This document shows positions 10,050 to 64,000 of a stretch of 64,000 nucleotides of DNA, piece after piece; positions within the stretch are counted from its first letter, which is position 1; every line of letters begins with the position of its first letter. The DNA lies in assembly GCF_041146795.1 (NCBI RefSeq), contig NC_135169.1, positions 14,050,352-14,114,351 of the forward strand, given 5' to 3'. Origin of the DNA: Maylandia zebra (taxonomy: Eukaryota > Chordata > Actinopteri > Cichliformes > Cichlidae). The position numbers and the translations under genes are program-made. The notes under the pieces were generated by a model. It did not search any database. It saw nothing but the letters and a program-made list of their open reading frames with translations, and was not told the origin of the DNA.

Positions 10050-10814
10050 TCCACATGAACCTCACAGCCACCACAGCAACCGTCGGGCAGAACGTCACTC
10101 TGCAGTGTCGAGCTCCAAACAAGAAGCTGATCACAGTAGTAGAATGGAGCAGAGCTGACCTGCAGGATGAGTATGTGTTTTTGATCCTGGATGGTCATTC
10201 CGATAGAGGCAAGCAGCATCCATACTTTATAGACAGGGTGGATCTGCAGGACAAACAGATGAAGGATGGAGACGTGTCTTTGATTCTGACCGATGTGAAC
10301 ATTAATGACACTGGAACATACGAGTGTCGCGTTGCGACAGGAACAAATCGCAAGAGGAGAGCTCATCTGGAGACCGATCCCATCAGTATCATCTACCTTC
10401 ATGTTGATCCTCCAGGTGAGTGAGCAGAGTTGAGTGTGTGTGTGATCAGAGGTGAAGCTGCTTCCTGGTTGTTGATGTTTGTTTCTAAAGATGTTGTTGA
10501 TGAGACTTTGTAGAAAGCAGCTGGTCTGAGTGATGTGATCAGAGTGCAGTAGATAATGTCTGACAGCAGTTTGAAGAGGAAATGGATTCTGTTCTGTTCT
10601 TCACTCATCACCTACCTGACAGCTGACACCTCACACCTGTTTCTCACCTGCAGGCCTGCCAGGAGGAGACACAGAGGATGGATGGATTGTCATTGTCAGT
10701 TTTGTTATAGTTTTTGGTGTTGCTGCTGTTATTACACTTGGGGTTGGGGTTTTTTTTTTTTCAAAACAAAATGCGAAAAGTAGAGGCAGGGGGCTTGGAG
10801 AAACCTCACTGTGA
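10050..10814 (+). CDS. V-set Ig receptor (B7/butyrophilin-like), V and TM exons
   Basis: Two exons join in frame: 10050-10415 (V-set; acceptor CTCCTTCAG, donor GTGAGT) and 10654-10814 (membrane exon; acceptor CACCTGCAG, stop TGA at 10812-10814). The V domain shows VTLQC, VVEWSR and NDTGTYECRV, the standard Cys-Trp-DxGxYxC pattern. The second exon reads GLPGGDTEDG, then a hydrophobic stretch (WIVIVSFVIVFGVAAVITLG), then a short basic tail without signalling motifs. Teleosts carry many such B7-H/CD276/MOG-like genes, thought to be T-cell co-regulators; this one is assigned by fold only. A 12-T run lies inside the membrane exon at 10750-10761 and may vary in length. No signal exon was found, so the gene may be incomplete or start further upstream. 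Confidence 0.65.
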
Positions 10815-30597: not shown

Positions 30598-31923
30598 ATG
30601 AAGCAAACTTGTCTGCAGCAGCTTTTCTGTAAGTAAAATTTGTAAATTATCAACTTGATTATTGAACGTAAGCAGTTAGTGCTTTTTCTTTGCTTTCAAG
30701 CAGGTGTAAACCACCTTGTACCCAGCAGAGGTGTTCTAGTTTTCTCATTTAAAATCTAAAAAGATTCTCATGTTTGAATTATGTGTGAATGTTTTCTCTG
30801 GTTGTGAAAGATTTTTTTAAATTTCCCCTCAGGGCTGAACTCAGTACTGTGCTGCAGACTGACTCATGGTGCGTACATCTCGTAAGCCAAATGTGTCTTA
30901 GTTTCAATAGTCAACTTACCAAAAAATACCCTGTTTCAATTTATTTGGAGTGAACAACCTAAAGCATGTCAGCGTTTATTCTACACTAAACTAAACTGCA
31001 GCATCGTGAATATTTCCTTCCAGCTCGTCTGACTGTGAGTCCCAGCAGCTCTCAGTTCTTTGAAGGAGACTTTGTGTCTCTGAGATGTGAGGAGGACGAC
31101 AGCTCTGCTGGATGGACTCTGAGGAGAAACACAAACAGAGAAACCAGGACTGAGTGCAATGAATGGGGAAGATGGTCTGGTTCATCCTGTAGCTTCAGCT
31201 ACATCTTAACACTGGACAGTGGAGTTTACTGGTGTGAGTCCAGAGAGGGTCCCATCAGTAACATGGTTAACCTGACAGTCACTGGTAAGCTGAGTGTGTG
31301 GAGTTAGTGTTGATGAAGCTGTGTGTAAATGGATGAAATGCTGTAGTTTGTCTCTGTGTTGAGGTGGATCAGTGATCCTGCAGAGTCCTGTCCTCCCTGT
31401 GATGGAGGGAGATGACGTCACTCTGCTCTGTAAAACAAAGACCACTCCCTCCAACCTCCCAGCTGCTTTCTATAAAGATGGCTCCCTCATCAGGAAGCAG
31501 CCTACAGGTCACATGACCATCCAGCATGTTTCCAGGTCTGATGAAGGCCTCTACAAGTGTGACATCAGCGGTCATGGAGAGTCTCCATCCAGCTGGATCA
31601 CTGTCACAGGTGAGGAGCTTCACTCTGATTTCACCTCTTATTTCATCCACATATTCACCTGAACAGGTGGGATTCTCTCTGCAGGAAAACATACAACCAC
31701 ACCTCCACCTACCATGTCTACAACCTGGCTCCCTGCATTAACTCCCACCCCTGCTGCATCGCCTGACTCCTCTACCCTGCAACTAGTGATCAGACTGGCC
31801 CTCCATCTGCTGGTGTTCTTTCCATATTTCATCTCCACCCTCCTCCTGGTGTCTTTATATCGATGCAGAGCCACAGGTCTTGACTCAGCCCAACCTGCTG
31901 AGCAGGGACTGGATGATAAGTAA
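30598..31923 (+). CDS. Fc-receptor-like type I membrane protein, two Ig domains, short stalk
   Basis: Inverted paralogue of the gene at 419-2442. Exons: 30598-30628 (ATG), 30833-30868, 31024-31284 (Ig1), 31364-31609 (Ig2) and 31685-31923 (stalk, membrane, tail; stop TAA). All junctions are GT/AG and phase 1; the total of 813 nt gives 270 aa. The signal reads [18 protein letters not shown]. Ig1 has VSLRC and DSGVYWC; Ig2 has VTLLC and GLYKC. The Ig2 exon is nearly identical to that of the other copy, whereas Ig1 and the 3' exons differ more. The membrane segment [20 protein letters not shown] holds an Arg near its outer side. The tail is short and has no tyrosine motif beyond the membrane-edge SLYRC. 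Likely an Fc-type or related surface receptor; ligand unknown. Confidence 0.85.
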
Positions 31924-42790: not shown

Positions 42791-44847
42791 GGTCTCTCTC
42801 TTGGGAGAGAGAGAAAGCGAGTTTTGAGATGTGAGAGATTTGTGACGTTTAGTGTGTTTGGAGTGTGTAGTTAATGTGTTGTCTTGTGTAGTTAGTGTGT
42901 AGTGTTGTGGATAGTTTTGTGTTGTGTGTCAGAACAATGAGGTGACTGCTGTCTCCAAGTATAAAAGAGGAGTGTTACACCTGCTGCTGTCAGACCTGCA
43001 GGTATCAGGCTGCGATGTTCTCCTTTATAGTGGACAGAAATTATTTTTTTGGAGTGGCATCTTATTGAATGCAGAACAGCTGATTGTTCTGTAAATAGTT
43101 TGAAATGGTTATTTAAAAAATCAAGGTAAAAGTTAAATGGATGCAAATAACTTTGTTGTTTGCAAAACTTGTGCATATGATTTTAAAATTGACAATTTAT
43201 ATTTGCATTTAAAGTTATGAAATATGATTCATTAAACATGTTTGTGGTTGTTACAATAAAAAAATGTAACTTTTTCTACTTTGATTTTATGTTTTTTGTC
43301 TGATTTTAGATCAATTGTGTTAATACAGTATGTCAAAATAAACTTTCTAAAACATAAAATTCATGAAAGAATCAGTGTAAATATGATGACGTTAGAAAAA
43401 AATGTAACAGTTTGCAGTTCTAGGAAGGATGATTAAGGCTGATTCACTCAAAGCTGAGTGCTTCGACGGATAGTCATACATAGATTCACCATGGCAACAG
43501 GTAAATACTCTACTTGAGTGCAGTGGATTGAGGACTGTGCTTCATTGTAGACCATTATTTATATTTATCTTTCATAAAAAAGGGAAAAAACTATTTTTTC
43601 CTGTTCAGGGTTGTTTACTCCTCATTTTACCCAACTTCATTTTTACTTCATGCTGACAAACCTAGACTCTGGCCAAATGATGCATTTAATGTTTACATCT
43701 AATTAATCAAATAAAGATACAAATATCAATCAAACAGAAAAGACACATTATATATCCAGTGAAACCAGTTTTTGTGATTTCCAACACTTATACATACACT
43801 GGACATTTAAACATTTAATGACTACATTTGAACATTTACACATATTTCAACATGAAAAACAATAAGAGTGCACTTGGATTGTCTGCAGCCTGGATTTGAA
43901 AACTACTCTAAGCTACATTTATTTTTAGGTTTTTTTGGATGTTGGAGAACCAGAAAATTCATCCACCATTGCTACGATTGCTGTCTGCATTAGTCACACT
44001 GCTATCATGTGTAGTATTAAAACCACATAAAGTTTTCCTTTTTTTTTAAAAGCAACATGTTTTTTTTTCTCAGAAAGCTCAGAAGCTGCACATGAAACAA
44101 TAAAACTAATGCTAACGTAGACAGGAAACACTACATGTGGCAAGGCAAATTTATTTTGGGATCATCTACCTGCTTCTCATTACACTAGCACTCTTGCTAT
44201 CCTTCTTCACTCAATCCACAAATCTTCTTTGTGGTCTTCCTCCATCTTCAAAAGCATTTGTCCAGTATAAACATTGTATCTCCACTGTTTCCACTTTGCT
44301 TTTTTTTTTTGTCTCTGAACTGCTCTGCCTTGCCTGTTCCTCTAATGTACTAATTTCTATTTTTTATTTTTTTAATTCTGGTCTCTCATAATCAAAATCT
44401 TAACATCTCCAACTCTCTGACCTTCAGCTCAGCCTGCTGTCTTTCTTTCCCACCATCCTAAATCCTACATCACAGCCAACCCTCAATGTTTGACCAAAAA
44501 AACATATAACATACCACCTGGGCTCTTTACAGTTAATTTTAACAAACTGTTAAACAATATTACATGAACAGAAATACATTAATAACTAAACCTAACACTG
44601 AAGAAGTTCAAAATGTTTGAAGAAAAAAATTATTCTTTAATAAGCAGTTTGGCTATGCATGGAGCTGCCTTATGCCAGCAAACACAATATTTCAAAATAC
44701 CTATGATGACAACAGTAGCTCCCATAGCAAAAACAAGTGGCTGAAAAAATGTAGCTGGATCACACGCTTCCAATCTCTGGTCAATCTCAAACCCTTCTGG
44801 TACTGGTACTGTTGGTGAGAATTAGAAGAGAGGTGTCAGACATGATC
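42791..44847. other. Non-coding; nothing firm
   Basis: Begins with GT-rich sequence (42830-42925) that may still belong to a retroelement 3' end, followed by AT-rich unassigned DNA. No gene is supported. Short hydrophobic frames such as 44137-44391 lack any splice or family support. Confidence 0.35.
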
Positions 44848-46826: not shown

Positions 46827-47428
46827 TCTTTTACAAATTACGCCCTCTGCTTCACTTCAGCAGCATCAGGTAATGTTCATATGTTGATTCTGGGTTTTCT
46901 TCCGTTTTTGTTCTACTGCAGAATATTTTTAAGGAGGTAATTTGCTATTCTGTGTTTTATCCTCAGTAACATTGATACAAAGGTATGCTGCTGTGATGGT
47001 TACACCTCTGATGAAGTCTCACAAGTGTCAGCTTTGTTTTTCTACACAGATATAAAAATATGGGTATGCACTGAGAAATGACCAGAAGCATAATAGTTCT
47101 GACAGAGTCTAAATTGAATTGAGTCGAATCAAATCGATTCAGGACTTTTGAATCAGAATTGTATTTTATTACAATCAGTGATGATACCCAGCCCTTTTAA
47201 CAGATAATGTGACAGTTTTCACTGTGTTTGTAAGTCACTCTGCTGACATTGGACAGAAACTGAACTTCTGATTGTTTAAAGCAGCTAGATTAATAAACCC
47301 AGTGTTGACTTACTGATCTAATAAACACCCTGATGTGAAACCAAATGAAGAAAAGATAATCTGGATATGTTGAACTTGTTTTGTAGTACAGGCTCCAGGA
47401 AGAAGATTCATTTCTTCTACAAACTCAC

Positions 47429-48219
47429 CTATTGTCAGCTTGATGATTGTGATGGGCGTAGTCTTTAAAATGGCTGCCTTAGAGTTGTTTGTTCCTACCT
47501 GGGTGACATGACACTCGTACGTTCCATCATCATCAAATGTCGTGCCATACAGAAACAATGTCAATTTCCCTTTTTGCATGTCTGTATACATGAGCAGAGC
47601 GTTCTCACTCCCGAGGCGTAACATGTCGACGTTTTGTCACGTCCCGCGGCGTTCCTGAGGAACGCGAAAGGAGACCTTCGGCGTTCTTATGGTACGCGGT
47701 GGGTTATGGCTGGAATCCAGTGCAATGACGCTCCCGCGGTAATAGACGTTCCAGCCCTGTATTCCAGCCCTAAACCTAACCTTATCCCTAGCCCTAACCA
47801 TAACCTTATTCCAGACCGTAACCAGGACTTTAATGATGTTAAATAGCGTGTTTCTAAGCGATTTGAAGAAAAAGAGCGAACATGTGTAGGTTCAGTCCAG
47901 ACGGTTCTCATATTTCCTCTTTTTCCGAGGTCGTCGTTTAGGAACGTGGTGGGTAGCCGAAAACGTAATATGGTGACGATTTGTCACCTAGCGTAAAATG
48001 TTACGCTTTGGGAGTGAGAACGGGTTGACATGAGACGTACTCGGTTCGCATAATGTGGCGGCTGAGTGCTTGGATCAGATGCATTGCTCTGGTAAAAAAG
48101 TTCTTTTTCTAGATTCAAGACAGATCTGGTCCACATCACAGCTCCAATGGACTCCTTATTTGGAACCTCGCATGGCAGAATGGCAATTTCTCCAGGTGCA
48201 GCGAAGACTTTCATTGGTT
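47429..48219 (-). pseudogene. V-set Ig exon split by a MITE
   Basis: Tandem duplicate of the V exon at 52957-53307. Upstream half: FAAPGEIAILPCEVPN, GAVMWTRS, NASDPSTQ, NRVRLM. Downstream half: YTDMQKGKLTLFLYG, DDGTYECHV, NNSKAAIL. Acceptor (CATTTCAG) and donor (GTGAGTTTG) are kept. A 433-bp MITE plus one 7-bp target copy interrupts it. Without these the exon is 351 nt, exactly the length of its paralogue and still open, so this is the only visible lesion in the exon. Flanking homology with the 53-kb locus runs from about 47268 to 48465. No signal exon or TM exon was found for this copy, so it is likely a non-functional gene fragment. Confidence 0.8.
47595..48027 (-). mobile_element. 433-bp MITE inserted in a V-set exon
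   Basis: Termini CAGAGCGTTCTCACTCCC (plus, left) and the complement of CAACCCGTTCTCACTCCC (right) form imperfect inverted repeats that continue into GCGTAACAT. The target duplication ACATGAG is perfect on both sides (47588-47594 and 48028-48034). A second, oppositely oriented copy is at 57254-57687. The body contains degenerate CCCTAACC-type hexamers. The frames on both strands (for example 47634-47846) recur in the other copy but look like repeat sequence, not a protein. Superfamily open: 7-bp duplication, or 8 bp with one mismatch if the ends are shifted by one base. Confidence 0.85.
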
Positions 48220-48465
48220 CTGAAATGGAGAGGAAACAACACAAAACAGTTTAGAGCTAATATGATACCAAACAAACCAGAATACACTGCATGCTAAATA
48301 TTTAAAAATTACTGAGAATCACATGAGGAGAATAATTTAGATTCCCCACAACACAAATAGAAATCAACTATAAATTTAAACCTGTCACAATCTAAGGATC
48401 GTCTATTAGATCAAGTAACACTGGAAAAAATGTCGCTCTCCCTCAAACAGAAACTTACATTACAG

Positions 48466-48760
48466 AATTACACTAACATGCTCCAGAGTGGTCAAATGTC
48501 ACTCAGGTTCCTATTTATTGGATTATGGTTCATTGTTGCTTAACATTTCTCTTTTGTTATATTAATTTCTACATTCATCATGTCCTTTTATCTTAAAAAT
48601 GACTAAAAGAGTAGTTGTAAAATAACAAACTGATCATCTGAAGAGATTTCAGAGCTCACAGTACAGAAACAGCTTTAGTGAAGGTTTAAAAAGGTTTAAG
48701 GTTCGTATGGCCTCTGACAGTGGATTCATCTCTGTGCTTGACCTACTGGAACTAAATGCA
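48466..48760. other. Non-coding
   Basis: Unassigned DNA between the V-set duplicate and a hAT element. The homology to the 53-kb intron fades at its left edge. Confidence 0.35.
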
Positions 48761-48768
48761 GTATTCAG

Positions 48769-49780
48769 TAGAGATGGCTACCGGTATCCGGTGCCATTAT
48801 GGCAGACCGAAAAGCAGCGCACATTCCGGTGCTTCATTTCTGTGCTTTCTTTTTTTCCTGAGATGTCATACACTTTAGATTCTAGCCAATCATTTTACAT
48901 TTGCAAGCATAGTAGGCGGGTCCAGGTACGTACGTTCATTTAGAGCAGAGCTACAGATTAAAAATGCCCAAGGCGGAGCGGTCAAAAGTCTGTCTGTACT
49001 TCACAGCAAAAGATGCAAACTCAGCAGCCTGCAACAAGTGCTATTATGCTGATACTGTGATACTGTGCAAAGGAGGTAACACCTCGAATCTGATGAAACA
49101 CCTGGCATAGCGTTTTTTTAAAACCTGAGAAATGCACCGTATTTGATAGCTTGCTGCGAGACCTCACACCGAGCACATCAACTGTGTGGTGCCTGTTATC
49201 AACCCGGAGTTAGCAACATGAACCCGAAGAGGAGAGTCCTGGCCCCTAGCCCTGCCAGTGTAGCAGAAATGATGACGGATGATGATGGCAGCAGCAGCCG
49301 TTCTTCTCTGCGTGAGTAGCTTAATGTTGTTCGTGTGTAATTTACATTGAGTAGGCTAACCACGTTATTACATTAATGCATGTAAGGTGAACTAGCAAAC
49401 ACCGTCGTAGTTACATGCAGCTGTCTTCTTGTTTGATGGCAGATACTCCCTTCACCCTGGCCAAAAAGGCTAAAATGACCAAAGAAAAAGAGGAAAACAG
49501 CTAAACATGAGAGGTTTTTGGACAAAGTTGGTGGTTTTTTTTCCATTGATTAAGCACTGCTTCCAGCCAAGAGTGATACCATATATGCCCCATAGCTGCA
49601 GAAAAGGCTAACATTGTTATCTTTTTACAAAAAACAGCTAAACATGAGAGGTTTTTGGACAAAGTTTGTGTTCTTGATTCTTTAAGCACCGGTTCGAGCA
49701 CCGTTTAAGCACCGGCACCGTTTCCAAAGTACCGGTTTGGTACTGGTATCGGATAAAAACCTAAACGATACCCATCCCTA
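48769..49780 (+). mobile_element. Internally deleted hAT element with BED finger
   Basis: A 1012-bp element whose right end, read inward, is TAGGGATGGGTATCGTTTAG; the left end is TAGAGATGGCTACCGGTATC. The 8-bp flanks GTATTCAG / GTGTTCAG match except for one base, as expected for hAT. A start at 48964 encodes MPKAERSKVCLYFTAKD, then AACNKCYYAD and NTSNLMKHLA, a BED-type zinc finger. The catalytic domain is absent, so it is non-autonomous. Confidence 0.8.
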
Positions 49781-49891
49781 GTGTTCAGTACTGTTGACTG
49801 TAATATTCTATTAGGGTGATTAGAGGATAATGTAGGTATTGCAGGTAGTGCGCTCCAGTGTTTTTCACAAAGGACTACATAAAGTGCAATA

Positions 49892-50704
49892 CAGTGGTCC
49901 CTCGCTATAACGTGGTTCACCTTTCGCTGTTTCGCAGATTTTTTTGGGGTGTCATTTTGCATGCTTTTTTTTTATTTATTTTTTTTAACAGTGCAATTTG
50001 TTCTGTGTCCTGATTGGCTGTAGACCATTGTCAATCAATCTACTCCATGCCGTGTCTCCAGTACAGTACAGAATGCGTTCAGCTTGTCAATAATCTGGCA
50101 GTGTCGCCCTCAAGTGCTGTACAGTATGTTTGTAAGTTTTCTCCCCAGCAAACACAACAATGTAGACGAAACATTTTGCACCGTCAAAGGCACCTGCGCT
50201 AGCACCCAAAAGGCAGAGGAAGATGCTAACCATCGCACAAAAAGTTGGACTTCTGGACATGCTAAAGGAAGGTAGAAGTTACCGTATTTTCCGTATTGTG
50301 AGGCGCATTATGGAAAACAAAACAGTCAGATAAGTCAAACTTTACTCAACTCATTCTTCTTGCTTCCTCTACTTCCATACCATTGATTCATTAATGTTGA
50401 GTTCTCTGGCAGCTGCTCTATTCTCATGTTCTGGACCTGAAAACAGGGTTTGATCTTTGGTTTCATTCTATAATACTTTTTTTTCTACCAAGGTTTGAAC
50501 TTTGAGAGTATTTAAACAAGACAGAAAAGTGTGAAAATGTTCAAGGTTGTCTGAGAAAAGTGTATAAAGTGTGTAGTTAGGGGTTTTACAGCCTTAAAAC
50601 ATCTATAAAATTGTTAAAAAATAATAATAAAGCTGACTATGCAGATTTCACCTATCACAGGTTATTTTTAGAACGTAACTCCTTTGATGAACGAGCGACC
50701 ACTG
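49892..50704 (+). mobile_element. Tigger/pogo-like element keeping a transposase N-terminus
   Basis: The inverted ends CAGTGGTCCCTCGCTATAAC and (complement) CAGTGGTCGCTCGTTCATC are bordered by TA on each side (49890-49891 and 50705-50706). At 50223-50282 it encodes MLTIAQKVGLLDMLKEGRSY, matching the CENP-B-type helix-turn-helix start of Tigger transposases. The frame then breaks, and a sequence like CCGTATTTTCCGTATTGTGA follows, possibly a second inserted element. Non-autonomous. Confidence 0.75.
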
Positions 50705-50819
50705 TATGCAAAAATCGCAAAAAAACAAAACAAAGACAGCGCAACAGGCACAACAGACTGATACAGTCACAAGACGGTGCAGACACTGCAACAATGACAG
50801 TGGGTTGTGCAAAAGACTG

Positions 50820-51103
50820 AGCACTGTGTGTGTATGAGGCTGGGCAGATAAGTGCTTGAAATAGTGACCTGTATGAACGTGTGTGTGTTTGTGTGTGTGT
50901 GTCAGTCCACTCATTGAGTGTTCAGGAGTCTGACATGGGGAAGAAACTGTTTTGCAGTCTGGCAATGAGGGTCCGGTACCTCTGGTACCTCTTACCAGAA
51001 GGCAGCAGGGTAAAGAGTGTGTAGGAGGGGTGTGTAGGGTCTTCCACAACTGTGGTTGCTTTGCAGATGCAGCAGGTGTGATCAATGTCTGTGATGGAGG
51101 GAA
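50820..51103 (-). mobile_element. LINE-derived fragment
   Basis: Sequence such as GGGAAGAAACTGTTTTGCAG and GTACCTCTTACCAGAAGGCA resembles a common fish L2-type LINE segment. I assign it to the minus strand with low confidence. It has no coding value. Confidence 0.35.
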
Positions 51104-52790
51104 GTGAGGCTCTGTGGTAAAGGCTGTGTAAATTCCAATAAAACTGAGGTTATTGTAGTCGGCCCTAAAGATGTTAGAAATATGGTATCTAACCAGATTC
51201 TTACTCTGGATGGCATTACCTTGACCTCCAGTAACACTGTGAGGAACCCTGGAGTCATTTTTGACCAGGACATGTCCTTCGGTGCACATAATAAACAAAT
51301 ATGTAAGACTGCTTTCTTCCATTTGCGCAACATCTCTAAAATTAGAAATGTCCTGTCTCAGAGTGACGCTGAAAAACTAGTTCATGCATTTATTACTTCC
51401 AGGCTGGACGACTGTAATTCATTATTATCAGGATGTCCTACAAAGTACATCCTGAGTACTGCTGCTCACCTACAAGGTCGTAAATAATCAGGCCCCATCT
51501 TATCTTAATGACCTTGTAGTACCACATCACCCTATTAGAGCACTTCGCTCTCGCTCTGCAGGCCTACTTATTGTTCCTAGAGTATTTAAAAGTAGAATGG
51601 GAGCCAGCTTTTATGCCCCTCTTCTGTGGAATCAGCTCCCAGTTTGGATCACCTGAATCCTCTCTTATTTATGCTGGATGTTTTTAAACACCTTTCTCCA
51701 TTTAATTATTAGTTATTATTAATCTCTGGCTGTCTTTCGCAGCATCTTACCCCCCTCACCCAGAACTGGTCATGGCATGTGGCCGCCCCTCCCTGAGTTA
51801 GGGGGGAGCTCGCACCATCCGCTCCAAGCTCCCTGACCTGCACTCAATCTACAGCAGGCGGTGCTGGACCAAGGCCAGGAAGATCGTGAAGGACCTCAGC
51901 CATCCCAACAACAGACTGTTCTCTCTGTTGAGGTCAGGAAAGCGATTCCGCTCCCTGAAGACCAACACAGAGAGACTGAGGAGGAGCTTCTTCCCGCAGG
52001 CGATACGGTCTCTCAATCACACCACCACACAGTACTGACCCACACATACAGTTCTTACACACACACTGGACTTTCTGGACATTGTTTTCACTTCATCACT
52101 TAAATCACTTAAAGCATATTTGCACTGCACAAGACATAATGTGGATTGCACAACACCGGTCACTATATTCTTCATTTCCAGTTAATACTTGTACAGCTGC
52201 TGTTATTGTGTATATATTTATTTATATTTCTTCATACATTCTTATATAGTTCTATACTGTGTATTGTGTATTTTGTTGTACAGTTATTTTATTTTCAACT
52301 TTAATTTATATATTTTATCTTATTCTTTCCCAGTTAAATTTACCCTTCATTCTAATTTGTGTTGTACAGTTATTTCATTTTTAACCTTAATTTATATTTT
52401 ATTGCTTCCTAGTTAAATTTACCCTTTTTAATTTTTCATATTTATTTCCTATCTTATTCATAGCCTTTTCCTTTTTTGTTTTCTTTAGGTCACGAGCAGT
52501 TGTCCAAGCATTTCACTACATATCGTACTGTGTATGACTGTGTACGTGACAAATAAAATTTGAATTTGAATTTGAATTTGATTCTGCTGGAGGTTTCTTC
52601 CTGTTAATATTTTTTTTCTTCCCACTGTCACCGAAGTGCTCGCTCATAGGGGGTCATATATCATATTTTCTCTCTTGTCTTTGTATTATTGTAGGGTCTT
52701 TACCTTGCAGTATAAAGTGCCTCAATGCAACTGTTGTTGTGACTATATAAATAAAGTTGATTTGAATTGAATTACTGGTGACATCAATTT
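51104..52790 (+). mobile_element. LINE 3' half with a second LINE nested in it
   Basis: The outer element encodes LINE C-terminal reverse-transcriptase pieces (KTEVIVVGPKDVRNM, LDGITLTSSNTVRNPGVIFD, FITSRLDDCNSLLSG). After 51780 it is interrupted by another LINE 3' end at about 51797-52580 (LPDLHSIYSRRCWTKARK, SLLRSGKRFRSLKTN; tail of repeated GAATTT). It resumes with TTCTGCTGGAGGTTTCTTCC and ends near 52780 with AATAAAGTTGATTTGAATTG. Both are 5'-truncated and dead. The outer one is of the same family as 12715-13560. Confidence 0.7.
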
Positions 52791-52956
52791 GGTCATGTTA
52801 ATATTTCTGATTGTTTAAAGCAGCTAGTTTAATAAATACAGTGTAGACTTGCTGATATAATAACCACCTTCATGTGAAGCCAAATAAAGGAAAAGATCAT
52901 CTGGATATGTTGAACTTGTTTTCCAGGAAGAAGATTAATTTCTTCTACAAACTCAC

Positions 52957-55179
52957 CCATTGTCAGATTGAGAGTGTTGATTGGCTTGGTCTTCAAAATG
53001 GCCGCCTTAGAGTTGTTTGTTCCTGTCTGGGCGACACGACACTCGTACGTTCCAATCTCAGCAAATGTCGCCTCCACTATATACAAAGACAATTGACCAT
53101 TCCACATGTCTGTATGCAGCAGATATATGCGACTCAGAGAAGGTGACTTCTGAGTGTCTGGATCAGACGCATTGCTTTGGTAAAAAAATACATATTTTGA
53201 ATCCAAGTAAGACCTGGTCCACATCACAGCCCCAATTGATATATCATTTGGAACGTAACATGGCAGAATGACATTATCTCCAGGAAAAATCTTGAGGGTT
53301 GTGGAGTCTGAAAGAGACAAAAAATACAACACAGACCAGTAAGCTGGAGTTACAGCTGATACCAAACAAACCAGAATACAGTGCATGCTGAATATTAATA
53401 CAATTACTGAGAATCACATGAGGAGAAACATTCAGAGAGAATCGGTTGCCCACGAAACAGATAGAAATCAAATATAAATTTAAACCTTTTACATGTAAGA
53501 ATCCATTAGATCAAGTAACACTGGAAAATATGTCTCCCTCCCTCAAACAGAAACTTCCTGCTCAGTTGTTTTTGTACACATGTTACATTGCAGCAAAAAA
53601 ACCCTGAAATGTCTGGTTCCAGCAGCCTCCTGTCAAAAGCTTTTAGTGTCTCAGATTGGATGAGTCACCCACTTCACCCCAAATCCACAGGTACCATTAG
53701 AGTTACCTGTACCTGAGCTGGACTGCAGTAAACATAGTTTAAATGAAAATCACATGTGAGCTTTAGACACAATCAGGTAAAGACTAGTAGTTGAAAGTAT
53801 GGAGATAATTCAAAGACAAAGGCATCAATTTAATTAAAAAAAAGAAAAAGCCTCTCCTCTCCCATCATCAATTTGCCTGAAAAAAAAATTACACAGAAAA
53901 AAACACTCTTACAACACTAATAGAAAATGTATAAATAAATGCCAAAATGTTAAAAAATCAATTTTCAGATAATAAGAGAGTACACTATATTATATTAACA
54001 GAAACTAGAATGATTTCAGTTTCTGTGAACACCTGGGGAATATCACACTGAAGCTGGACCTTTGTACTTTTAAGCTTTAATATCTGTAAAACTATTAACA
54101 ACGATTTGCACAGTTTAACTAGAAGTTTATGCCTTAAATATGGAAATTTGTGCATAAAATATCAATCCCCTACCCGCTACACAATTGTCTTTGAAATCTG
54201 CTGTCAAAGATGGGACAGCCAATAATTTCAAGAATCCATCTTTCTGTGTGAGCTTCACCTCTGAGAGTTCACATTCATACAGCCATGCGATGTCCCTTAA
54301 AGTGTTTTTTTAGATAACAGGATTTTAAAATATCCTCTACAAAGAGTATCAGCAAAATTTCTAACAACACCCTGATACCTGCTCATATGTAATTGAACAT
54401 TTAATTTTCTCAAACAAAAAATTATTACAACAGGGACCTAAAAGTTTGCATAATGTACATTGAGAAGTTTAAAGTTGCCTTAATTTTTTTCCGGCAAATC
54501 TGGGATGATCGGGTGAGAGGTATTTAATGAACTGATATGGAAAGATCCCAAAAATGAAACATTTTTGAATTAAAATCACTTGAATTAAAAGCCTTCCGAG
54601 CTGAGAGTATCTTCACAGATCCAACAGAAACATGTGTCTCATCGCTTTTGATGTTTTTTCATGATAAAAAATAAAAAAATATTTCATGATTCCCCCTTTA
54701 ATACCTATTAAGGAAAATTGATCTTGAATCAATGAGTTTTGATGAAAAAGATCAGCATTGTGCTCCACATTGAAAAGCATTCTGATTTTTCTTCTGCATT
54801 TGATTCAAATTGAGGCTCTGCTGATTAGATATTTTTGTCGTGGTGATTCCTGATAGATCCTTCAGATGGTTTTCATTACTCACACGTGTGATCTTAACAC
54901 CTGTCTGTCCTCCACCTGTTGATATTCATCACTAAGACAAACATGCTCTGTCAAAATCCAAACACTAAGTGCAGCACACGAAGTATCTAACATAGTACAA
55001 AGTAGGAGAAATACGCATCTCTGTATATACATGTGTCACTGCTGGCTGCAAGTCTGACATCAGACATTCAGCCAAAAGAGCTGATTTATATCATTCTAAT
55101 GAAAAACCTCACCTCCAGAAGATGATGGTGACAGACAAAGGAGAATCAAACCCAGCACGGCTCTTCTGGACACGTTCAT
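52957..55179 (-). CDS. V-set Ig receptor (B7/CD276-like), signal and V exons
   Basis: Exon 1 (55179-55113) encodes a signal peptide MNVSRRAVLGLILLCLSPSS with a phase-1 donor. Exon 2 (53307-52957, 351 nt) encodes one V-set domain: FPGDNVILPCYVPN, GAVMWTRS, GTYECRV, NNSKAAIL. Acceptor CTCTTTCAG and donor GTGAGTTTG match the duplicate at 47 kb. The intron is 1.8 kb. Such proteins are usually membrane co-regulators of lymphocytes, but no transmembrane exon was recognised downstream (lower coordinates). It is either in the repeat-rich 43-52 kb stretch and missed, or lost. Function beyond the Ig fold is therefore open. The V exon is intact. Confidence 0.65.
53308..55112 (-). other. Intron of the V-set gene
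   Basis: AT-rich intron without a recognised repeat or nested gene. Its first roughly 250 bp are homologous to sequence upstream of the V exon at 47-48 kb (about 48220-48465). Confidence 0.5.
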
Positions 55180-56454: not shown

Positions 56455-56690
56455 ATGACTCTGAGTTGTGTATTTACACAACCAACAGAAGAAGACGGCC
56501 GTAGTGATAGACGGAGCGGTTCCGAACGACAGCAACATCAGGAAGAAGGAACACAAGAAGCTGGAGAAATAAAAAGGCCTCAGTGAAGAGCTGGAGAAGA
56601 TGTGGAGGGTGAAGGTAACAGGAACAGCTAAGCGACTGCGCAGGACCCTCAAGCTCCCAGGCCTCTGGTAGATATTATCATATAATTATA
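56455..56690 (+). mobile_element. LINE C-terminal fragment
   Basis: Encodes KKTAVVIDGAVPNDSNIRKK, ELEKMWRVK and RRTLKLPGLW-like peptides, as in the C-terminal end of a LINE polyprotein frequent in fish and amphibians. A stop and an internal deletion are present. The opposite-strand frame 56428-56652 is its shadow. Confidence 0.55.
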
Positions 56691-57246
56691 AATTATTATT
56701 GTAAAATAAGTGGATTTTATAAATATCCTGAACAGAAATGTTAAGTTATTTAATTGCAAAGATGGTGACTAAAGTTTAAATTTCAGGTGGAAAAAAATTG
56801 ATTTCCTTAATTAAGGCATAAAAACTGTACTGGACCAAAATCAGAAATGTGCAGAGTGCAGCAAACCAGGGGCGGTCCTAGCATGTTTGGTGCCCTAGGC
56901 TCTGCAGTCGTTCACTTTCCTGTTTCTCCGTATGAATAAAAGATACATAAGCTGAGAGTGTTTCTCAAAACTGGGTTGTTCATTTTAATCTCTTTGTCTT
57001 GTTTTCAGAAAACATCAAATTTTAATGAATTTAAAATAATAATATTCTGCATGTACACCCATCAAATACATAATATTTTAGGTTGTTCATTTGATGTAAA
57101 ACTGCTTCCAGGTTTGTTACACCAACTGTTTCACTTCATAGATGCTTTTCTGATCTAGTTATTTTTTTTCTGAAAATCTAAAATTTTACAATCCTACTAT
57201 TTATCCTAATATGATTTATCCTAAAGTCCCAAAGAAGGATTTACTT
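56691..57246. other. Non-coding
   Basis: No gene. Around 56871-56910 GGGGCGGTCCTAGCATGTTT looks like one end of a DNA transposon, but no partner end was found. Confidence 0.35.
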
Positions 57247-57253
57247 ACTTGGA

Positions 57254-57687
57254 CAACCCGTTCTCACTCCCAAAGCGTAACATTTTACGCTAGGTGACAA
57301 ATCGTCACCATATTACGTTTTCGGCTACCCACCACGTTCCTAAATGACGACCTCGGAAAAAAGAGGAAATGTGAGAACCGTCTGGACAGAATCTACACAT
57401 GTTCGCTCTTTTTCTTCAAATCGCTTAGAAACACGCTATTTAACATCATTAAAGTCCTGGTTAAGTTCAGGAATAAGGTTATGGTCAGAGCTAGGGATAA
57501 GGTTAGGTTTAGGGCTGGAATACAGGGCTGGAACGTCTATTACCGCAGGAGCGTCATTGCACTGGATTCCAGCCATCACCCGCCGCGTACCATAAGAACA
57601 CCGAAGGTCTCCTTTCGCGTTCCTCAGGAACGCCGCGGGACGTGACAAAACGTCGACATGTTACGCCTCGGGAGTGAGAACGCTCTG
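57254..57687 (+). mobile_element. Second copy of the 434-bp MITE
   Basis: Opposite orientation to the copy in the V-set exon and nearly identical in sequence. Ends CAACCCGTTCTCACTCCC and (complement) CAGAGCGTTCTCACTCCC. Perfect flanking duplication ACTTGGA (57247-57253 and 57688-57694). High similarity and clean duplications suggest recent activity of the family. Confidence 0.85.
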
Positions 57688-57694
57688 ACTTGGA

Positions 57695-58936
57695 CTAACA
57701 TGAACAAAGAAAAAAGTCAATAAATGCTTGCAGCATCTAGTGCTTTCAACTAGGACATTTTGTTTATTTATTATATGTATTAATTATATATAAAGTATTG
57801 AATTATTGCAGTCAACACTGAGAGGACATTTATTCTGTCGGCATCTGTAGCTCTAGTACCTCCAGTAGCCAGAGCTGGAGATTTTTATGAATGGGAGTCA
57901 CTGGTAGGATCAAGAACAAGGGTGACGGTGGTGTTGGCATTTGGAAAAAAAAGTGAAAGAAAACATATGGCATTAATTCTATTTTAATTAAATGCTTATT
58001 TGTATTATTTTATTATAATTTAACATGTACTTTACAACGGACAAAACACATGACCTGCTGCGCAAAGTATTCCCTTGAGTGGGTAGTAGGTACATTTATT
58101 TTTAGTATAACTCCAAAAATGGTGCTCCTGTGTGTTAACTCGCAAAAACAAAGAGAATTTTTTTTCAAAGCAGTTTTATTTATTTACCTTCACTTCTGGA
58201 CATAATTGGCAAGCTAGTGAAACAATAATAGGCATCTATCTGTATATTATGAAAATGATGTTAAAAAAAACAAATAATCAACTCAATTAGCAAGCACAAT
58301 GCAAGAAGAAAGGAAAAACTACTTCACACTCAAGTCAAGTCTCAACAAATCAATCGATAAGCTGTGACACAGATTTGGAGGATAACTTTGGTCCGCTTCT
58401 TTACTGGCCTCTCTTCCCACTGACAAAAAGGCCCATAAAAAGGAAAAAATGTCATTCAGTGAAGCATCAAATCCAAGTGATGTAATTGGTTTACCAGCAC
58501 AATGGAAACACATAATTATATAAAATCACATTTAGAGAAATAATATTTTAGGTTCTTCCCATCTTAGGAACACACTGGAACATGTCAGCTTTGCTGGTTG
58601 TTTTTCATTTTTACCCCCTCACGTTACTATTTTATGTTTGGTGTAATAACTAAAAAGTAAAACTGGCTTTTTGAAATGGATTTTGATTTAATATTATGAA
58701 TATTGAAAGAAACAGAAAATACGAAAGGGATAACAAAATTGTTTTGGTTTTTCCCTCAGTAAATATAAAAGCACTAATAAAAAAAGCCCCAATTGAAGTC
58801 TAAATAGAACCCAAGAGTTGACATTACAGTGGAACTGTGAAAACCGGAGCAGTCTTCATAAACTGCACTGTGAAGAGTGAAGAAGATAGATTAGATGAGG
58901 ATTGAATATGTTTATAGATGGAGTACTGAAACACAT
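57695..58936. other. 3' flank of the NXPE gene
   Basis: Probably includes the minus-strand 3' UTR of the NXPE gene. AT-rich, with no other gene supported. Confidence 0.4.
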
Positions 58937-60672
58937 CTATCCACCCTTTGGAGGACATATGTAGGACAACAGAACATTAATCATGTTCTTGATAATTGGA
59001 GGTTGTGGGTGCATGAGGTGTGGCAGGTGGTGGGCCAGAACCATCTCCCAGGCATCCACCAGATGGACATTCAATCCTTTGAATATAGCCTTGAGTGCCT
59101 TTAGCCGCTGAAAAGTGTACCAGTCGCTGTTAACAAATGCACCAAGAATTGTATAAGGTTTGGGATTTCCAGTCCGAATGACAACCACTGTGCCTGGAGC
59201 CCTGGACAGTAGCCGTACCACTGCACTGCGGATGGTCATCAGTCGACGGATGTAGAACCCAATAGGGAAATTGTCAAAGTGTGCCCAGATGCCAAAAACT
59301 ACTACAGTGTTACTGCCTCCAAGCACATTGTCCAGCTCATTGGCAATATAATGCAGCTCCATGGATGGGACAATGACAGTACGTAGAGGAGGACCATGGG
59401 TGCGGTACCTTACAAAGATGTTATTCGCATAGTCCAGGGCCGTTAAAGGTCCAATTGATTTGCGGCTATGAAGGTTAAACTCCTTTAGATCTAAAAGAAT
59501 TCCAAAGGGAATAAATTAAACTACATAAATAAAATAGTGTGAATAAATTATTGTTCTTTGCCAGAAAGGTTTGCAGAGCAGCTACCTGGTAGTGCTGCAT
59601 TAAGGTACTCAAACCACTGCCTCATTGTGGAGTCTCCATACATATGGACCAGCTTTCCTTTCAGACACTGAGTGATGGCTGAGGAAGTGTTGAACTGATG
59701 AACGGTAGTGCCACCTAGTGCTCGCCACACACCCTGGTAGTAATAGCCAGACGGTTCAGACTCCACACTGCTGCTGCTCACCTCTGACTGACCTGGTAAG
59801 CAGTAAAACAGACAATGTGTATTTTAATAAGTAAAAATACACACACACACAAACAAAGCCTTTCCTTAACCTGTATAAACTCAATTAATCTGACAAATGC
59901 AGCATATGCAGTGTGCAGATACAGTACCTGGTCCATGAGGCACTGGAAAGTGGCTGGTTAGGGCAAAAGCCAGGGTACACCCTGGACATGTCACCAGCCT
60001 GTCACAGCGCTAACACATAAAGACGAATAACCATTTACACCAGATTCAAATCTATGGACAATTTAGATTGACCAATTAACCTAACCCCACATACTCCATG
60101 TCTTTGGACTGTGAGACGAAGCTGCAGTACCTGGAAAGAACCAATGCAAACACGGGGAGAAAATGTAAACTCTAGAAAGAAAGGCCCCAACCATGTGTCG
60201 GAATTGAACCCAGGATCTTCTTACCTTCTTGCTACTAATTGCACGACTATGCTACCTGGTTCAGGTATGTCGTTGAAAATAAAATCTCAGGACTTACCAC
60301 AATTCACTGATCACATTTAGTTGGTGGACCGATACATCATGTTCACCAAGGAGAAAGGTGGCAGGTTAGCCTTCTTGGAGGCCTTCTGTGAGGTTTGCAT
60401 CAGTAATGACGGACATTTAAACCTTGATGTGTACCATAAAGTAACCCATACAAATAAGTATTTAAAGTTTGACCATTGGCGTGCAAACTGGATGTCATCG
60501 CACTGTGAGACAGAGTGAAAACCATCCCCACAGAGAGGCCAGGGAAGATATGGAGATGAAGATTAAGATATAGATGTTAGCAGTAAGATTTGTATTTTTA
60601 CCTTTCTGTTTTGGCAAAACAGTGACACTGGCAGGTCCTGAAGCTGGAATGGATACTTTCATGTTTACGCGG
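58937..60672 (-). CDS. NXPE-family protein, 3' exons (PC-esterase-like domain)
   Basis: Three minus-strand exons fit: 60672-60602 (VNMKVSIPASGPASVTVLPK), 59792-59586 and 59490-58937 (stop TAG). Phases agree. The middle exon has GYYYQGVWRALGG and LVHMYGDSTMRQWFEYL, where GDS is the PC-esterase-type motif. The last exon has VVVFGIWAHFDNFPIGFYIR and VDAWEMVLAHHLPHLMHP, with the distal His-containing motif. NXPE proteins (neurexophilin and PC-esterase domain family) are secretory-pathway glycoproteins; their biochemical role is poorly known. The 5' exons are not visible up to 64000, so the gene either continues beyond the window or is 5'-truncated. The introns hold a Penelope fragment and a common repeat. 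Confidence 0.8.
59940..60260. repeat. Common interspersed repeat in an NXPE intron
   Basis: TACACCCTGGACATGTCACC, CCAATTAACCTAACCCCACA and GAACCCAGGATCTTCTTACC mark a repeat found widely in fish. Related shorter pieces are at 35.5 and 46.1 kb. Confidence 0.5.
60310..60520 (+). mobile_element. Penelope-like element fragment
   Basis: Encodes FTKEKGGRLAFLEAF, then DGHLNLDVYHKVTHTNKYLK, matching the distal reverse-transcriptase region of Penelope-like elements (usual form: LPFLD..., VYRKPTHTDQYL). It sits in an NXPE intron in opposite orientation and is short and dead. Confidence 0.65.
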
Positions 60673-60969
60673 CTGAGGAAAGTACATACATTACAATCTT
60701 TTCACAAAAATTGGAAAGTATTAAAATGATTTTTAAACTAGAGATGTACTAGATACAGTGAATCAAATTCAATTTTTTATCATTGTCATATTTAGGTAAC
60801 AATGGCACATCACTACTGACAATGAAAATTTTAGGCTCAGTAGGCAGCAAACATAGCTTGAGTTATAAACTACCAATCATTAAGCTACAGACCAGATAGA
60901 GAAAATATGGAACATTTTTCCAGGTAGCAAGCTACATAGTTCCATCTCTATTCTAGCAAATCTAACGAG

Positions 60970-62101
60970 CTTGGAAAGAAAAGCGTCTGGACTTCTTTGA
61001 GTTGCTTGAAGACGTCTCACCTCTCATCTGAGAAGCTTCTTCAGTTCTAAGGTCAAATGGTGGAGAGTCCCAGATTTAAACCCAGTGGGAGTTTCCCCCC
61101 AAAGAGGGACAAAGGACCCCTGATGATCCTCTACCTAATCACATGAGCCAAGGTGTGAAAGCAGGTGTGGGTCACAATCAGCCATTTCTCTGCAACAGTT
61201 GCCCATAGTGGACCTCATCACAGCCACAGAAACTGCCATACGGATTAATAAATTATCACAGACAGAAGCAGAGCAAATCAGGATGAAAGTCTCAGCCACC
61301 CTCTCCAGTGCCAAAGTCCCTCCGTCTAACCTCACATTACAAGAAAAGATGGCTGTCGCTTCCCTGAGCAAAGACCACAACATCACTATATTACCAGCTG
61401 ATAAGGGAAGGTGCACCGTGGTCCTAAACACAACAGATTACCACACAAAGATCACTACTCTCAGGTAGTGACAACAATACCTACAAAGCCTTAAAGCGAG
61501 ACCCCACAAGCAGCTACAAAAAGAAAGTTATAGCTTGCCTTCAAGACCTTGAAAGGGACGAAATCATTGACCGCCTTACATATCACCACCTTTACCCAGG
61601 GGATGCCATACCCTGCATTTATGGACTTCCTAAGATCCACAAAGAAGGTGTCCCACTCAGACCCATTGTCAGTAGCATAAACTCAGCCACTTATAACATT
61701 GCTAAACACCTTGCTACCATCCTAGCACCTCTTGTGGGGGAACACCCCACATCATATCAAAAACTCCACCGACTTCACCGACAAGATCCAGAAACTTACC
61801 CAGGACCCAGATGAAACCATGGTGTCCTTTGATGTAGTCTCTCTCTTCACTTGGATAAACACCACAGAGGCAGTGGAGACTGTCAGAAAATGACTACAAG
61901 ACAGCTCCTTGGAAGACAGGACCAACTTCACACCCGATCAGATTTGCACACTGTTAGACCTCTGCCTCACCACTACATATTTCAAATACAACGAGGGTTT
62001 CTACAGACAAAAACATGGCTGCGCCATAGGCTCCCCGTGTCACCTATTGTAGCCAACCTTTACATGGAGGAAGTGGAAAGAAAGGCTCTTGGTTATTTTA
62101 A
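60970..62101 (+). mobile_element. Penelope-like element, 5' region and part of the RT
   Basis: A leader like CGTCTGGACTTCTTTGAGTT and GAAGCTTCTTCAGTTCTAAG precedes coding remnants. An open frame at 61199-61468 ends in NITILPADKGRCTVVLNT. After frame breaks, pieces such as YGLPKIHKEGVPLRPIVSS, MVSFDVVSLFTW and HGCAIGSPVSPIVANLYMEE follow. These are Penelope-type reverse transcriptase motifs. The copy stops at 62101, where another element begins, so the YxDD-containing part and the GIY-YIG region are missing. Dead. Confidence 0.75.
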
Positions 62102-62720
62102 CCCTTTAAGACCTACCATAGAACCAAGTCCGCCAGAGCCCGGTGGGCCGCTGGCGATTTTTTGTTTTTATGGGCCGATGGATTTTTTTTTTTTTTTTTA
62201 GGAAGGGTATATTTAATGAAAGGTGTTGGATTGGCCAATTGGTCATGATCGACTCTGGGCTGGAGCAATTACAGCCGAGGAGGCCGGATACACCCTCCCC
62301 CTTGTTTAGCAATCATGCCGGCTCTATCAAGCCTTGGTCAGCTATCACGCTGGTGGATAACGCAGCTCTCTGACAACGTGGAAGCACTTTTGCAAATATA
62401 TGATATTTTGATAAATTAAGTAGATATTTGAGCATTACACAGCTACATTCTCACCTGAAAATATCTTAGAAGGTTATTTTGTGACCCAGAAAGGGTAATC
62501 TAGGGAAAAGGAGGATCGCATTTGTCGGCCGCGGTTGTCGGAGCCTGTGCATTCTTGTAAGCGCGGCAATGGCGGAGGAGCACAGCTAAAAAACTGTTAA
62601 ATATTACTTTTTCTGGGTCACAAAATAAACTTTTAAGATATTTTCAGGCAAGAATGTAGCTGTGTAAAGTTCAAATATCTGCTCCAGCTCAAGACATCAC
62701 ATATTTGCAAAAATGGATCA
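62098..62720. mobile_element. Inverted-repeat element, possibly piggyBac-like
   Basis: Begins TTAACCCTTTAAGACC directly after the Penelope sequence. It carries a long internal inverted repeat: ACACAGCTACATTCTCACC through TTTTGTGACCCAGAAAGGG (about 62436-62500) pairs with CTTTTTCTGGGTCACAAAAT through AAGAATGTAGCTGTGT (about 62608-62667). A TTAA start suggests piggyBac, but the right end was not found. No coding. Confidence 0.4.
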
Positions 62721-62790
62721 AAGGATCAAATCAGCTTCTAAAAAATGTTCTGTTTTTTCTCCCTCTGCTTGCTTCTTACTGTCTTTGCAG

Positions 62791-63579
62791 CTCGGGACCA
62801 GCACTCCTGCTGTTGGACAGAAAGACATCAACTCAGTGGTAAGTATTTTGGTTTTCCAATATATTAGCAACTGTCAGTGACATTTATATTAATCAGGCTG
62901 AACTTTAATCATACTTTAGATCAGCCTGTTTTACTTATTGTTTTATTTGTGCTTTGGTTTGGGGAAGTTGTTTCTTTACTGATCTTTTCCTGTCTTCTGT
63001 CATTAGACTTGAGATATGACTGCACTATGCTGTTGCTGTTGATTCCAGTAAATTCTACAAGACACGCTGTGTAAGTAAACAAACAACAACAGTTTGGTCT
63101 GCATTTCTTGAAAGATCACATCCCCAAACTTAGTTTAGAGGGTCTATACTGTATATAGTGAAATCTGCAAGTTTTCTAACAGCAAAATTTTCTTTGTGCC
63201 CAAATCATTTTGCACATCATTAGAATGAAAGTTATTGGCCATGTTTGCATCGCCCTTTTTAAAATCATGCTTTCATGATATTATCGTATGTTGGGTGGTG
63301 GTCAGGGCTATCCAGACTGACAAGTGGGACATTGAATGTCACCTCTCCGGTGGGGAGGGAGCCTGAGACTGTCTAAATTGGAGTCTGTTCTATACCAAAT
63401 GCAGAAAAAAATGTTTTAAGAAAGTAATTAAGTTCATGTTCCAAAAAATATGATTGTTTGGTTGCAGGACACCAGGAGAGATGAGTACTCCGTCACAGAT
63501 GGTGTGGTCAGTGAAGATGGTTGCCTGCAGGTTCAAGCTCATTGCATCTCCAACCCACATCCACTGCCACTGTACTTAA
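62791..63579 (+). CDS. Possible small spliced gene of unknown identity
   Basis: Three exon-like pieces have good splice sites: 62791-62838 (TTTGCAG / GTAAGT), 63007-63070 (CATTAG / GTAAGT) and from 63468 (GGTTGCAG). One frame stays open through all three to a TAA at 63577-63579 and includes DLRYDCTMLLLLIPV. In the last piece another frame is open longer (to about 63632; GVVSEDGCLQVQAHC). AATAAA signals follow near 63762 and 63956. I do not recognise either peptide. It may be the 3' end of an unknown plus-strand gene, a non-coding transcript, or chance. Confidence 0.25.
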
Positions 63580-64000
63580 GGGAAGTTAAAGACTTTCTTC
63601 TGCACCTACATTTGGATCACCTCGATCCATGATAGTCATTCAGGCAGTAATGCCTGGACTGGAAACAAGCCATCCTTAAAATATTACAACATTCCAGCTC
63701 AGGTGTTGGAATGAAAAACAAATGTGTTGTTTAAATTAGAGACTGCACTTATGACAGAACAATAAATATTTTATTTTGATTATATAAGTAATGTAAGTAC
63801 AAAACAAACTTGTGGTAGGCCTAAACTTATTTTCATAATAATTACATCTGAGACTTTGTTTCATTGTAAGATTATAACAGTGATGGCAATATAATTGTTT
63901 GATGTACAAGAGAACAGTGTCCAGTATGTTGGCTGTTATACTTTGTTGTGTTTGAAAATAAAAGTTGGGCTGATTTTAACATCATTACAAAAAGTGTTGT

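Follow-up and report, generated by a model that had tools for sequence, protein, structure and literature searches.

The window analysed here is a stretch of 64,000 nucleotides from Maylandia zebra (NC_135169.1, positions 14,050,352 to 14,114,351), and positions are counted from its first letter. Its minus strand carries two V-set exons, V1 and V2, the latter split by a short transposable element. The features of the locus are the following:

57254–57687, minus strand: second copy of the MITE family, 434 bp, with duplication TCCAAGT and 96.8% identity (sequence comparison)
55113–55179, minus strand: predicted leader exon MNVSRRAVLGLILLCLSPSSSG, ending in phase 1 at a GT donor (prediction from a leader scan)
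52957–53307, minus strand: V-set exon V1, intact, 351 nt (PF07686, E 2.2e-8, above the cut-off)
48220–48456, minus strand: intron stretch upstream of V2, common to V1 (191 identical of 217 ungapped positions)
47429–48219, minus strand: V-set exon V2 of phase 1-1, interrupted by the element and 351 nt long before the insertion (V-set matches on both halves)
48028–48034, no strand: target-site duplication ACATGAG, right copy
47595–48027, no strand: element with terminal inverted repeats (MITE), 433 bp (boundaries set by 41 copies)
47588–47594, no strand: target-site duplication ACATGAG, left copy
47266–47428, minus strand: intron stretch downstream of V2, common to V1 (138 identical of 151 ungapped positions)
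44630–44808, minus strand: weak candidate for a transmembrane/tail exon, phase 1 (low acceptor score of 0.7; absent from the results of the transmembrane scan)

V1 matches the Pfam V-set family with 34.7 bits (cut-off 26) and, among solved structures, is closest to CD226 (E 8.2e-6). V2 lies 4.7 kb away. Once the element and one duplication are removed, it measures 351 nt, exactly as V1 does, aligns with V1 without any gap (254 of 351 nt and 57% of the amino acids identical) and reads through the junction (NRVRLM / YTDMQKG) in the V frame of the minus strand without a stop. The state of the exon before the insertion can thus be read, as an earlier note on this DNA had claimed, and this empty site provides an easy marker for genotyping. 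V-set domains are recognized by two cysteines, a tryptophan and a DxGTYxC motif, and V2 carries these hallmarks (LPC, MWTRS and DDGTYEC). Searched separately against the Pfam V-set family, its halves reach 21.4 and 20.2 bits (E 3.1e-4 and 7.3e-4), each under the cut-off of 26. The exon is bordered by a good acceptor (TTTCAG/AA) and a good donor (AATAG/GTGAGT).

The element begins with CAGAGCGTTCTCACTCCC... and ends with ...GGGAGTGAGAACGGGTTG, and 25 of the first 30 positions agree between its inverted terminal repeats. It is flanked by a perfect 7-bp duplication, ACATGAG. Since the boundaries are set by other copies, the probability that such a match arises by chance is about 4^-7 (our own arithmetic). 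The claim of a 433-bp MITE lying cleanly within a V exon, between perfect copies of ACATGAG, was confirmed to the base, with boundaries and duplication length compared across 41 copies. The longest stop-to-stop frame within the element is 98 aa, and 433 bp are too short to encode a transposase. Terminal inverted repeats, a short and uniform length, numerous copies and a target duplication of fixed length all fit a MITE.

The family was searched in the whole genome (962 Mb in 63 contigs), where 40 of 729 first-look candidates were scored. The 41 copies compared (39 fetched ones, the copy at 47595–48027 and that at 57254–57687) are those nearest to the 47595–48027 element, so that the set leans towards young copies. 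Their length is exactly 433 bp in 40 cases and 434 bp in one, and 33 of them are bordered by a perfect 7-bp duplication at identical boundaries. The remaining target sites show one mismatch (three copies), two mismatches (one), an 8-bp duplication (one), a shift by one base (one) or no duplication (two). Base counts at the 33 perfect sites suggest, by eye, a dyad pattern T.T.Y...R.A.A, with T (17/33) and A (22/33) just outside the ends of the duplication. Four copies share one and the same sequence, and other pairs without any difference are found at separate loci; the family is young and was recently amplified.

The termini of the family read CAG..CGTTCTCACTCCC, with a 7-bp duplication. A 29-base pattern of the left end with two free bases has 216 matches in the genome, and the same pattern read backwards, used as a control, has none. 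As some of the 100 matches listed have a variant end, CAGCCC, the figure of 216 counts the ends of a wider family rather than full copies. A 7-bp duplication was recognized by eye around three of the four CAGCCC-end copies that were fetched. One of these three, at positions 616–701 of L072 on the minus strand, is a derivative shortened to about 86 bp; it may reveal how little end sequence is required for movement.

The second copy in the window lies within a block (56573–64000) that is 99.8% identical over 7.4 kb to positions 113940–121362 in window numbering, about 57 kb to the right; a counterpart of this copy, bordered by the same duplication, is found there. The block was either duplicated in tandem very recently or duplicated falsely by the assembly. 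Two frames on its minus strand, at 58937–59823, match the family of NXPE4 C-terminal domains.

The earlier note also viewed the insertion as recent, on the ground that the exon shows no other lesion. The recency stands; the argument is weak on its own, since chance alone can keep an exon of 351 nt open over a long period. A better clock is provided by the sequence of the element itself. Nine of the 40 copies of 433 bp belong to a subgroup defined by at most three differences from the 47595–48027 element and marked by five sites, one of which is absent from one member. The copy inserted in V2 differs from the majority of this subgroup by one private base in 433 (element position 342). At the cichlid mutation rate of 3.5e-9 per base per generation (estimated from Lake Malawi trios, cited in PMC5524536), one difference in 433 corresponds to about 0.66 million generations (95% interval 0.017–3.7 million). 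These data support a recent insertion, and the interval is too wide to place it before or after the origin of the species.

The private base also bears on whether the element was misplaced during assembly. Near-identical copies exist elsewhere, and a duplicated block of 99.8% identity, real or not, lies nearby. Against this, a local 7-bp duplication at the exact ends of the element together with a private base are the marks of real transposition, a misjoin would not produce a target duplication, and the V2 halves match nowhere better than about 43% except at V1, in a search run with V1. An assembly artefact is thus scarcely credible.

The relationship between V1 and V2 is less straightforward. 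The earlier note spoke of a "47-kb copy", as if V2 belonged to a gene copy of its own, which now appears doubtful. The introns that flank both exons are identical at 329 of 368 ungapped positions when the two flanks are combined, which implies a local duplication that took in intron sequence as well as the exon. The leader scan found a single candidate upstream of V1 (55113–55179), none between V1 and V2 (48230–52950, minus strand) and none on the plus strand of both stretches, used as a control. These shared flanks and the leader scan are the reasons why V1 and V2 are read here as one gene. However, the silence of the scan between the exons is weak evidence, as the scan also missed the leader of the V gene located at 10 kb. 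The transmembrane scan gave no match on the minus strand, either beyond V2 or in the stretch that separates the two exons. It detected the candidate transmembrane exon of the 10-kb gene and gave 2 and 1 matches on the plus-strand controls, so that it is neither sensitive nor specific. As to the candidate last exon at 44630–44808, no homologue was found elsewhere in the genome at E <1 (best E 1.1), and its weakness means that V2 could be an orphan exon. Translations of the gap between V1 and V2 resemble what we take to be pieces of transposons.

It is accordingly worth weighing whether V2 is a separate gene copy that was turned into a pseudogene by the insertion. The 4.7 kb between the exons, their 57% identity in protein, the weakness of the last exon that they would share and the ability of the scan to miss leaders, as for the 10-kb gene, are all consistent with this. 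Conversely, the interval 48230–52950 contains neither a leader nor a minus-strand transmembrane candidate, even though the same approach retrieved the predicted leader at 55.1 kb and the candidate transmembrane exon at 10 kb. A separate copy is therefore unlikely, and V1 and V2 are probably two V exons of one gene rather than two gene copies, as judged from the sequence. Close pairs of V hits occur elsewhere: among 150 scored V hits in the genome, there are 25 neighbouring pairs on the same strand within 6 kb. Two of these correspond to the pair of V2 halves and to the V2–V1 pair, which leaves 23 others.

No further copy of the V1/V2 gene with more than 43% identity to V1 was found among 150 scored of 505 genome candidates, besides V1 itself and the V2 halves. 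Flanking sequence searched over 100 kb in each direction, with N over the 5 kb next to the window on its left, adds only two V hits; both are of the 10-kb type and share about 35% identity with V1 and V2. The 10-kb gene (10076–10700) has a V-set exon on the plus strand, then a candidate transmembrane exon at 10654, and the leader scan found no leader for it. Two relatives, 67% identical, lie to the left of the window at distances of about 26 and 33 kb. On the genome scale, large clusters of V-set exons are found on contigs C24, C3 (0–4 Mb) and C7 (7.4–8.2 Mb), among 150 scored of 505 candidates. The window also harbours an inverted repeat of about 600 bp (1467–2074 and 31021–31625, 93% identical). 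It contains a protein fragment that looks Ig-like, and the tblastn match of this fragment to V2 is at chance level (E ~8).

V1 and V2 differ at 97 of 351 positions in the exon and at 39 of 368 in the flanking introns (Fisher P 4e-9). The exon is thus about 2.6 times more divergent than the introns (47266–48456 compared with 52805–53556), the intron figure being taken from local alignments, which are biased towards the similar part and ignore gaps. The differences are spread almost evenly over the three codon positions (32, 29 and 35, each of 116), and third positions alone (35/116) also exceed the introns (P 2e-6). There is no evidence of positive selection between V1 and V2 by dN/dS (0.93, bootstrap 95% 0.57–1.62). 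Taken together, these values point less to simple positive selection than to divergence or conversion specific to the exon. The excess could stem from gene conversion or from another V exon having taken the place of the original one.

As V2 now stands, the V frame enters the element from the duplication and reaches a stop after 14 codons (RVRLM / STRSHSQSVTFYAR, stop). Inclusion of the exon with its element would therefore shift the frame and place a stop within an internal exon, and such stops should trigger nonsense-mediated decay. In contrast, skipping V2 would keep the frame, since the exon is phase-symmetric (1-1). Splice sites were scored with approximate textbook frequencies, which give 6.2 for the native acceptor and 7.0 for the native donor of V2 (sum 13.2). 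On this scale, an acceptor located in the element reaches 7.0, against 6.2 for the native one, which would favour the idea that the element became an intron or an alternative exon and that a functional variant of the receptor is retained or gained. Joined to the native donor, however, this acceptor defines a piece of 226 nt that shifts the frame. In addition, none of the 48 open GT–AG pairs that would allow in-frame splicing within V2 is plausible, the best summed score being only 0.1. Such an exonisation is thus highly unlikely.

Taken as a whole, the history of the locus can be viewed as follows. A non-autonomous DNA transposon from a recently amplified family would have been mobilized by a transposase acting in trans and, as its anatomy indicates, would have entered, through a staggered cut of 7 bp, the second V-set exon of a receptor gene with two V domains. 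The transcript would then either skip V2, which would join the leader and V1 to the downstream exons and yield a receptor with one V domain fewer in the same frame, or include V2 and be degraded because of the stop. We consider this account, from the trans-mobilized young MITE to the skipping or degraded transcript, to be probably correct. The loss of one Ig domain is a likely effect of the insertion, as far as can be told from the exon phases and the interrupted frame. That the insertion segregates as a domain-loss allele, some fish or sister species having a receptor with two V domains and others, through the skipping of V2, a receptor with one, is conceivable and on the whole rather doubtful.

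The event is ordinary in kind and well preserved, and no new principle is needed to explain it. It offers a clean and datable case in which a coding exon of a large V-set family was disrupted by a young MITE family. If V2 is skipped, the modular phase 1-1 organization of Ig exons would act as a buffer against transposon damage. If the domain-loss allele segregates, it would provide a natural presence/absence test of a domain of an immune receptor.

With respect to known systems, V1 shares its V-set domain with receptors of the immunoglobulin superfamily such as the CD226, MOG, CAR and B7 types, a likeness at the level of the domain. The 433-bp element resembles MITEs of DNA transposons in general by its short and uniform length, terminal inverted repeats, numerous copies and target duplication of fixed length. 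In the published literature, neither a text search with the core of its terminal repeat nor one on cichlids, MITEs and immunoglobulins retrieved it, the matches listed being unrelated by their titles. Transposons of the hAT superfamily generate 8-bp target duplications. As 7 bp were found in 33 of the 41 copies and 8 bp, at identical boundaries, in only one, duplication length speaks against a membership in hAT.

Duplications of the P superfamily range from 7 to 8 bp, so that the 7-bp duplication of the element matches this superfamily without being specific to it. The P-type transposase domain PF21787 has six matches at four places in the genome. Three of these (all except C3:11379302) were scanned over about 4 kb on each side (about 8 kb each) for an autonomous partner, using the 13 bases at the core of the terminal repeat and allowing two mismatches at most. 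The pair of terminal repeats of the MITE was present at none of the three, and the core came close to matching just once, in L068, where two bases differ. By duplication length, the element resembles Galileo, a P-superfamily transposon of Drosophila for which 7-bp target duplications are implied in PMC3573991. An analogous case among Lake Malawi cichlids might be piggybac-5, a non-autonomous element derived from piggyBac that, according to PMC11202377, is suggested to be still mobilized. It would have in common with the element in V2 the lack of a transposase of its own.
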